NCBI RefSeq assembly: GCF_000215995.1
Contig: NC_015680.1
Span: 1,377,160-1,441,159, forward strand
Direction of reading: 5' to 3'
DNA length: 64,000 nucleotides
Source: Pyrococcus yayanosii CH1
Lineage (GTDB): Archaea; Methanobacteriota_B; Thermococci; Thermococcales; Thermococcaceae
In this document: piece after piece, positions 44,143 through 46,412 of the stretch
Layout of the letters: each line of letters begins with the position of its first letter
Position numbering within the stretch: the stretch's first letter is position 1
Program-made: the position numbers and the translations under genes
Notes under the pieces: generated by a model
What the model saw: the letters and a program-made list of their open reading frames with translations, nothing else
Databases searched by the model: none
Told to the model about the DNA's origin: nothing

Positions 44143-44894
44143 TGCACACGATGTACGTTGAGAAGGACTCCCCTCTCCACTCTCTCGATCCGAGGGTTAA
44201 GGTTATCTCAACTGCTCTCCTAACAATTATAGTCATACTAACAACCCACCCCGTATTTTCTCCCTTGATGTTCCTTACAATCGCTCTAGGGCTCCGCATC
44301 CTCGGAGGGATAAAGGTCGGCTATCAGCTAAGGGTTCTCAAGCCCCTTCTTCCCCTTTTTCTCCTAACCTTTGCCATATGGCCCTTCATAATAGACCCGT
44401 GGAAGAGGGGAGTCCTCGTTGGCATCGGCTACACCTTCAGGCTGGCCTCCATGGCCCTCCTTGCCTTAGGTCTTCTTATGACGACTACCCAGAAGGATCT
44501 AATACTCGGCCTCGTGAAGCTGGGCCTCCCCTATGAGCTCGGGCTCGCCACCACGATGGCCCTCCGCTACATCCCGACACTCTACGCCCTCACCCAGAAC
44601 ATCATGGATGCCCAGAAGAGCAGAGGGCTTGAGCTTGAAAAGGGAAAGTTCCTTGAGAGAATGAGGAAGATGGCGGCCATCGTAATTCCCCTGATAGCCC
44701 TGACCATAAAGACTGCCCACGAGCTCAGCATAGCAATGGAAAGCAGGGGCTTCGGTGCATCAAAGAAGAGGACGTTCCTGAGAGACATAAAGATGCAGAG
44801 AAATGACTACCTAGCACTATCTCTCGTAACAATCCTTGCAATCATCTACCTTTACCTCCACCTTTCCCTCGGTCTTGGGAGCTTCTCCCCATAA
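44139..44894 (+). CDS. ECF transporter transmembrane subunit EcfT
   Basis: A 251-residue membrane scaffold with about five to six helices. It has the EcfT start LHSLDPRVKVIS and coupling-helix motifs with Ala-Arg-Gly character: DAQKSRGLELE (about 165-175) and AMESRGFGASKKRT (about 198-211). It joins the ATPase dimer to the substrate-specific subunit. ATGs at 44139, 44142 and 44151 are in frame. Its 3' end overlaps the convergent gene by 53 nt. Confidence 0.9.
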   Translation: MMHTMYVEKDSPLHSLDPRVKVISTALLTIIVILTTHPVFSPLMFLTIALGLRILGGIKVGYQLRVLKPLLPLFLLTFAIWPFIIDPWKRGVLVGIGYTFRLASMALLALGLLMTTTQKDLILGLVKLGLPYELGLATTMALRYIPTLYALTQNIMDAQKSRGLELEKGKFLERMRKMAAIVIPLIALTIKTAHELSIAMESRGFGASKKRTFLRDIKMQRNDYLALSLVTILAIIYLYLHLSLGLGSFSP

Positions 44895-45531
44895 GGAGGG
44901 CCACGGTGGAATCTATCGGAACGTCATGCTCCCCTAAACCCTCAAGCCTCTCAGCATACGTCCTGAGAACCGTGAACCTCAGCCTGTAGTGGCCCCTGTA
45001 GGAGCCCGTCCTAAGAACGAGGAGCTGCTCGAACATCTCAGGTAGGAGAAAGCTTTTCCTGACTTCTCCCATAAGATCTAGCTCATTCAGGGTCGTGTTC
45101 TCGGTGAGTAGAACCAGAAAGAGGGCTTTTAAATCAACGAGCCTCCTCAGCTCAAGCATGCCGTCACTGTCGGCCCCCTTGAGGAGCGGAAAGCTGGAAA
45201 CGAAGACAAAGGAGCCATCCGACACCATTTCTACACCCTCAAGGAGCTCTCGGAAGGAGTACACCCTGGCCATGAGGACGGAGGACGGATCCCCGCCGAA
45301 GCGCTCGAGAAGGGATGGGGAGAGGCCATTCATAACGTCGAGATAATAAACGGGGATGCCGGAAGCCTGGGCTTTTGCCATCGAGGAATACTTCAGGAGG
45401 GCCGTAGAGAGAGGATCGGCAGTTATCACGCCAGCCATGCTACCCTCTTCCAGCTCACCCGCGACCCTCGAAACCTCATCAAGGAGGGATAGGGATTTAA
45501 CGTCCCTAATGGGAGTGTAAAAGACCGGCAT
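44842..45531 (-). CDS. Unknown protein, possibly RecA-fold without P-loop
   Basis: A 229-residue protein I do not recognise. It alternates predicted strands and helices (GVITADPLSTALLKYSS, GIPVYYLDVMNGLSPSLLERFGG, FVFVSSFPLLKG, ALFLVLLTENTTLNELD) as a RecA-like domain would, but has no Walker A. The order resembles the middle and end of RadB/KaiC domains, which is a weak similarity. It ends in a basic Gly-rich tail. A TATA at 45553-45563 gives a leaderless start at ATG 45531. The last 53 nt overlap ecfT. Confidence 0.65.
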   Translation of the reverse strand: MPVFYTPIRDVKSLSLLDEVSRVAGELEEGSMAGVITADPLSTALLKYSSMAKAQASGIPVYYLDVMNGLSPSLLERFGGDPSSVLMARVYSFRELLEGVEMVSDGSFVFVSSFPLLKGADSDGMLELRRLVDLKALFLVLLTENTTLNELDLMGEVRKSFLLPEMFEQLLVLRTGSYRGHYRLRFTVLRTYAERLEGLGEHDVPIDSTVALLMGRSSQDRGKGGGKGR

Positions 45532-45552: not shown

Positions 45553-45563
45553 CTATTTATACT
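45553..45563 (-). promoter_or_regulatory. Promoter of the 44842-45531 gene
   Basis: Minus-strand AGTATAAATAG, 26 nt before ATG 45531 and only a few bases after the D box of the sRNA. Confidence 0.6.
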
Positions 45564-45565
45564 TT

Positions 45566-45623
45566 AGCGTCAGACAACCGAGTGTTCATCACCAATCAGC
45601 CAGTGCCGGTTTCATCATCCACA
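45566..45623 (-). ncRNA. C/D box sRNA (2'-O-methylation guide)
   Basis: On the minus strand, in order: C box GATGATGA (45619-45612), guide AACCGGCACTGG, D' box CTGA (45599-45596), 4-nt linker, C' box TGATGA (45591-45586), guide ACACTCGGTTGT, D box CTGA (45573-45570). Both guides are 12 nt, as in archaeal box C/D sRNAs of about 55-60 nt. The C box contains the TGA stop (45617-45615) of the DUF63 gene, so the RNA is probably processed from that transcript. Targets would be CCAGUGCCGGUU and ACAACCGAGUGU in rRNA or tRNA; I could not identify them. Confidence 0.85.
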
Positions 45624-46412
45624 GACTATCTGCAACACCATTTGAGCGGGGTCGCGTATGGCCGGTCCAAGGCCAAGAATATATATGGCCAGATACCAGA
45701 AATTCCTCTCCTCTTTATCAGGAACCAAGTATTTGAGGCCGTAGTAAACGGTCACGAGGATGAGGGTTATCCAAGGATAGTAGGCATAGGGGCCGAGAGC
45801 CCTCACGAGGTGGTTCTCAATCCAGTGGACCTCCCTGTACCCGTAAATATCTATCGCTACGACGGTGGAGGCTATGTCGAAGTAGTGGGCAAGAGTGGGG
45901 TATAAGTAGAGTTTCTCAAAGGGCCTAAACCTGTAGAGGGTAAAGACGGCGGCCCAGCTGATTGCCGTGTGGATTAGCGTTAGGATGTAAGGCTCCCAGC
46001 ACCTCGCGTTCGTTACAAGGAGGTAGTTCGCCCAGAGAGCCAGGAGAGTGCCCCACCCGATTGTAATCCTTGGATACGTTTCCAGCTTGGCATCGGCAAT
46101 TAGGGCAGGGAGGATGAGAAAGAAGGCCGTGAAGAATATTCCAGGGGTGAGTATCCAAGGGTTGGGCTCCAGAACACCCCCATCCACGAGGGCCCTCACG
46201 GTGGCTCCAAAGACCACCATTGGCGTAACCGCCAGGAAGAGCCTCTCATCCACCTTAATTCTCAGAGGCCTTATTATGTATCTGTACGTGTATATGACGG
46301 CGAAGCCAAAAATCAGGGCATAGACAAGGGTGTTTACGGGGTTGTAGCCTTCTCTCGTGTACATGGGCCTCACAAAGTACTCCCAAAGGAAGTCCCGTAA
46401 GACATCTAACAT
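45615..46412 (-). CDS. DUF63 family membrane protein
   Basis: A 265-residue archaeal membrane protein with about eight transmembrane segments. Family-typical segments are YNPVNTLVYALI near residue 24, FGATVRALVDGGVL, TPGIFFTAFF, LAHYFDIASTVVAID and the closing GLGPAIRDPAQMVLQI. Function is unknown. GGGGGTCGATGA precedes ATG 46412. The coding region is divergent from nucS and the two may share a TATA-containing gap. The last codon and stop form part of the C/D sRNA. Confidence 0.85.
   Translation of the reverse strand: MLDVLRDFLWEYFVRPMYTREGYNPVNTLVYALIFGFAVIYTYRYIIRPLRIKVDERLFLAVTPMVVFGATVRALVDGGVLEPNPWILTPGIFFTAFFLILPALIADAKLETYPRITIGWGTLLALWANYLLVTNARCWEPYILTLIHTAISWAAVFTLYRFRPFEKLYLYPTLAHYFDIASTVVAIDIYGYREVHWIENHLVRALGPYAYYPWITLILVTVYYGLKYLVPDKEERNFWYLAIYILGLGPAIRDPAQMVLQIVCG

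Follow-up and report, generated by a model that had tools for sequence, protein, structure and literature searches.

The locus considered here raises the question of whether the sequence in which a protein gene ends is at the same time the start of a guide RNA and, if so, what this double use means for the two products. It lies on the minus strand of a window of 64,000 nt (the whole stretch of DNA that was analysed) from the complete genome of Pyrococcus yayanosii, which comprises 1,716,818 bases; in what follows, Pyrococcus stands for the window's own genus (g1). The explanation to which the evidence leads, and which we regard as highly probable, is that of a dual-guide C/D sRNA hosted by a DUF63 gene, with targets in helix 68 of 23S rRNA and a lineage-specific move of the sRNA gene. 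The features of the locus, in window coordinates, are the following:

45615–46412, minus strand: DUF63 membrane protein gene (PF01889, E 2.8e-76), the probable host transcript
45567–45622, minus strand: C/D box methylation-guide sRNA (RF00095 match; 27 aligned Thermococcales copies)
45620–45622, minus strand: 5' half of the terminal stem, GUG, pairing with 45569–45567; compensatory changes in relatives
45612–45618, minus strand: C box, ATGATGA; its first UGA and final GA are invariant in the alignment
45615–45617, minus strand: stop codon TGA of DUF63, the first UGA of the C box; a second in-frame TGA follows at 45614–45612
45600–45611, minus strand: D' guide, AACCGGCACTGG; predicted target 23S U1970 (E. 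coli U1841), 11 of 12 Watson-Crick pairs
45596–45599, minus strand: D' box, CTGA; the D'/C' pair changes from C-G to A-U in 11 of 27 sequences
45586–45592, minus strand: C' box, GTGATGA, from the sequence
45574–45585, minus strand: D guide, ACACTCGGTTGT; predicted target 23S C1996 (H68), 10 Watson-Crick pairs and one G-U of 12
45570–45573, minus strand: D box, CTGA, from the sequence
45567–45569, minus strand: 3' half of the terminal stem, CGC; compensatory changes in relatives
45554–45561, minus strand: TATA-like TATAAATA, presumably that of the next gene, 23–30 nt before the ATG at 45531
44842–45531, minus strand: downstream gene, ORF start at 45531

Anatomy and identity of the RNA

The preliminary description of this DNA had read perfect C, D', C' and D boxes and two 12-nt guides on the minus strand, and all of them are present. 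The four boxes, of which the C box conforms to RUGAUGA and the D' box to CUGA, follow one another in the order of an archaeal C/D guide, within the 50–70 nt expected of such an RNA and with a spacer of 3 nt from the D' to the C' box, and a guide of about 12 nt complementary to rRNA stands beside each of D and D' (targets 23S C1996 and U1970, respectively). This perfect C-D'-C'-D pattern is found once in the window and in none of 60 first-order Markov copies. The Rfam model RF00095 (snoPyro_CD) matches positions 45622–45567 of the minus strand over its full length with 53.4 bits (E 2.4e-8). This is the sole Rfam match of the window and ranks third among the 23 matches to RF00095 in the whole genome at E ≤ 0.001; its score lies above the curated cut-off of 45 bits.

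The C/D and C'/D' motifs have K-turn and K-loop potential, respectively, with covariation and with tandem G-A columns that are nearly invariant. Minimum free energy folding of the sRNA is no better than that of shuffles (z 0.18) and is uninformative, which is to be expected of a short RNA of the K-turn/K-loop type. The main texts of the publications list neither a numbered sR family nor expression of the P. abyssi or T. kodakarensis homologue. The probable T. kodakarensis locus (G031, 1368414–1368481) does not appear among the circular sRNAs tabulated in the main text of PMC9014305, and the P. abyssi homologue may well be among the 59 C/D guides listed in PMC3124441.

Predicted targets and conservation

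When rRNA and tRNA were searched with the D/D'+5 rule, a check put forward in the preliminary description, plausible targets were obtained for the two guides, both in 23S rRNA. The D' guide pairs with positions 1966–1977 of the P. yayanosii 23S rRNA (11 of 12 pairs) and the D guide with positions 1992–2003 (10 pairs and one G-U of 12), the two sites being 26 nt apart. The predicted 2'-O-methylation sites are most likely U1970 and C1996 in helix 68, in this genome's numbering. By alignment to the E. coli 23S rRNA, U1970 corresponds to U1841; C1996 belongs to helix 68, which is shorter in archaea, and its counterpart lies near E. coli position 1882, although the alignment is uncertain at this point. 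Helix 68 counts among the methylation hotspots described in the literature (PMC4644070), and P. furiosus RiboMeth-seq data are deposited as GSE153501 (PMC7758197). Among 20,000 shuffled guide pairs, three equalled both matches within 100 nt of 23S rRNA. The motif targeted by the D guide, ACAACCGRGTG, occurs genome-wide only in 23S rRNA and, antisense, in the sRNA itself, and a tRNA target for this guide was rejected on this ground. It counts against the prediction, however, that in several Pyrococcus genomes the D guide is mismatched next to the D box (TTGG) and the D box reads CCGA. Bound by L7Ae, Nop5 and fibrillarin, the dual-guide sRNA would most likely direct 2'-O-methylation of 23S U1970 and C1996.

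Boxes that are not conserved in relatives had been named in advance as a finding that would speak against an sRNA. In fact, the sRNA is present in eight of the nine Pyrococcus genomes, the exception being a genome with a completeness of 77%, and in most of the other Thermococcales genomes searched, and the copy of another Pyrococcus genome reaches 57.9 bits with RF00095. Throughout the 27 aligned copies the core of the D' guide is nearly invariant, as is that of the D guide except in two copies from the Palaeococcus-like g4. Compensatory changes are seen in the terminal stem (GUC/GAC, UGC/GCA, GCC/GGC), and at the U-U position of the K-turn eight sequences have CC, GC or CG in place of UU. The 27-copy alignment, which includes related sequences, has a covariation score of 0.552, compared with 0.183 in shuffles (0 of 500); the score drops when the pairing partners are slid. 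These coordinated changes of stem and K-turn are good evidence for a K-turn-structured RNA under selection. The reading as a C/D box guide sRNA is thus supported by the RF00095 match, the rRNA targets and the conservation.

Six near-complete genomes of other genera are without an intact copy, none being detected in four of them and an interrupted one being found in two, and the function of the sRNA is therefore dispensable, that is, not essential to Thermococcales. Weak matches of the model in other orders (33–38 bits) were rejected as a different sRNA, since the five copies read carry other guides. At two loci of g4 (L064 and L117) the D' guide is kept and the D guide is replaced (GGCGCTACCCAA, GGCGCTACCGGG); no convincing target of the replacement guide was found in the rRNA of the window genome.

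The DUF63 stop codon and the change of neighbours

As had been claimed, the stop codon TGA of DUF63 (45617–45615) lies inside the C box (45618–45612); an upstream ORF on the same strand thus ends in the C box, and the 5' half of the terminal stem (45620–45622) is part of its last two sense codons, TGT GGA. A TATA-like GTTAAAAAG is located about 40 nt upstream of the DUF63 ATG. At the other end of the sRNA, the preliminary description had placed the TATA of the next gene just past the D box, the RNA being fitted between two genes with no spare base. The position of the TATA-like element past the D box is correct, but the absence of any spare base is slightly overstated, as TATAAATA starts 8 bases after the D box. 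The downstream gene itself (44842–45531) has no Pfam or NCBIfam match and, among the genomes searched, is found in Thermococcales only.

In each of the 8 Pyrococcus loci that could be read, DUF63 terminates at the first UGA of the C box, and the last two codons of the Pyrococcus DUF63 genes, which encode C and then Q, R or G, share bases with the 5' stem of the sRNA. The 15 DUF63 loci from outside Pyrococcus have an unrelated stop codon of their own (TAA, TAG or TGA), within a few residues of the same place, and no sRNA. In other genera, including g4, the sRNA adjoins a gene of the MarC family (PF01914), and the Pyrococcus MarC gene is without an adjoining sRNA. The g4 lineage is thought to branch outside Pyrococcus plus Thermococcus, and the MarC neighbourhood is therefore probably ancestral and the DUF63 site derived. 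On the most economical reading, the sRNA gene left its place beside MarC in the Pyrococcus lineage and came to lie behind DUF63, whose stop codon it captured; after this shift, DUF63 would read into the 5' stem of the sRNA and terminate at the C box. In Thermococcus the downstream gene is also near DUF63, but stands divergently on its other side, whereas in Pyrococcus it follows DUF63, which places the Pyrococcus sRNA at a local rearrangement junction. Moreover, neither the sRNA nor DUF63 depends on a coupling of the two, because each occurs without the other outside Pyrococcus. The guide pair is kept through most Thermococcales while the host gene changes and the C box becomes the stop of another gene, which illustrates clearly how guide RNA genes of archaea switch neighbours.

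A separate observation concerns an element with a TnpB-family ORF that is inserted at the identical place of the sRNA in two genomes of different genera (L065 in G036, where the element measures about 1.45 kb, and L133 in G023; MarC loci L136 and L138). The insertion point lies after ...GAAACCGG and before GCACTGG and parts the C box from the rest of the sRNA. Other copies of the element (L142–L146) are preceded elsewhere by a CGG- or AGG-like flank, and the invariant ACCGG of the sRNA may therefore be a preferred insertion site of the element.

Probable release, possible coupling and comparable overlaps

By eye, no TATA-like stretch is visible before the sRNA in P. yayanosii and in other Pyrococcus genomes. 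Since no promoter is evident at this place, the sRNA is probably released from the DUF63 transcript, which bears out, as probable, the origin from the 3' end of the DUF63 mRNA given in the preliminary description. The sRNA would be transcribed as the 3' end of this mRNA, and the sRNP would shield its body while the flanks are trimmed, leading to its release, as in the published maturation model, in which the body is protected by the sRNP and the flanks are trimmed (PMC7994747). That the sRNA has a promoter of its own inside the DUF63 coding region, with mRNA and sRNA as separate transcripts, is unlikely: a TATA-like motif is present within 50 nt upstream of about 20% of archaeal C/D sRNA genes (PMC7994747), but here, to the eye, the upstream stretch is without an AT-rich TATA-like run, in this as in other Pyrococcus genomes.

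If the sRNA is released from the DUF63 mRNA, processing must strip the stop codon from that mRNA molecule, and the overlap could be viewed as a regulatory device, in which release of the sRNA, or binding of L7Ae to the K-turn that covers the stop codon, lowers the stability of the DUF63 mRNA or the termination of its translation, and the supply of sRNP controls DUF63. Some mRNAs do contain K-turns through which L7Ae regulates their translation, the best-documented case being the 5' UTR of the L7Ae mRNA itself (PMC5539422), and the overlap is retained in all eight readable Pyrococcus genomes. We nevertheless hold such a device to be very unlikely. As the bases serve both products, the overlap is retained without any need for regulation; the loss of the stop codon from one mRNA with each released sRNA is no evidence of regulation either; the same genome has such overlaps on unrelated host genes; and in reporter tests of C/D sRNAs overlapping 3' ends (Tripp et al., 2017, as summarised in PMC7994747) the effects were neutral or slightly negative. 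The idea that maturation links the levels of the sRNA and of DUF63 in a regulatory sense thus finds no support, in view of these reporter effects, of the frequency of published overlaps and of the fact that each partner is kept without the other outside Pyrococcus; nor is the arrangement special, as the stop-in-C-box overlap is common and published. A reading that adds a regulatory role to the proposed move from MarC to DUF63 in the Pyrococcus ancestor and to the replacement of the stop codon, such that the fate of the DUF63 mRNA now depends on whether an sRNP assembles on the shared K-turn, is very unlikely; if true, a signal from ribosome biogenesis would control the membrane protein DUF63. 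Finally, UGA-rich boxes can arise around stop codons and the folding of the sRNA does not exceed that of shuffles, but the alternative that box-like words surround a TGATGA stop by mere chance and that no RNA exists is contradicted by the Rfam E-value, the order-wide conservation, the covariation and the paired 23S targets, and can be practically dismissed.

The Pyrococcus C/D box sRNA families behind RF00095 (snoPyro_CD) were reportedly described by Gaspin and co-workers in 2000. The present sRNA resembles RF00095 in the order of its boxes, its length of about 56–58 nt, its Pyrococcus origin and its score over the cut-off, whereas the family pools many guides. At least two more of the genome's 23 RF00095 matches contain the stop of a real gene in the C box (L007, behind a DUF2666 gene, and L008, behind a DUF7411 gene). 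In both, the stop occupies precisely the C-box position that it has in the DUF63 sRNA (sRNA positions 6–8); the guides and the host genes are different. In another family of the class (L131, L132 and L135), a C/D sRNA with quite different guides provides, within its C box, the stop codon of an ORF of 407 aa, and a related copy (L130) lies 59 nt behind an enolase-like ORF, with no overlap.

Among archaeal C/D sRNA genes in general, about 25% overlap the 3' end of an ORF, almost half of these with the stop codon in the C box (PMC7994747), and insertion into a transcribed place is thought, in the account reviewed there, to be enough for maturation of a C/D sRNA (Tripp et al., 2017). The change of neighbours described above supports the view, already published, that a C/D sRNA can be hosted wherever there is transcription, and leaves the known mechanism unchanged. 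With the stop-in-C-box sRNAs of Tripp et al. (2017), as far as they are reviewed in PMC7994747, the DUF63 sRNA shares the UGA in the C box, the lack of an evident promoter of its own and the coding neighbours; there is no mechanistic difference. In the present case, comparison with relatives reveals the change of neighbour from MarC to DUF63. The RNA is genuine and conserved, the type of overlap is already well documented in archaea and, in the light of the published figure of 25%, of L007 and L008 and of L131, L132 and L135, the DUF63 sRNA is a well-supported further case of this known overlap.
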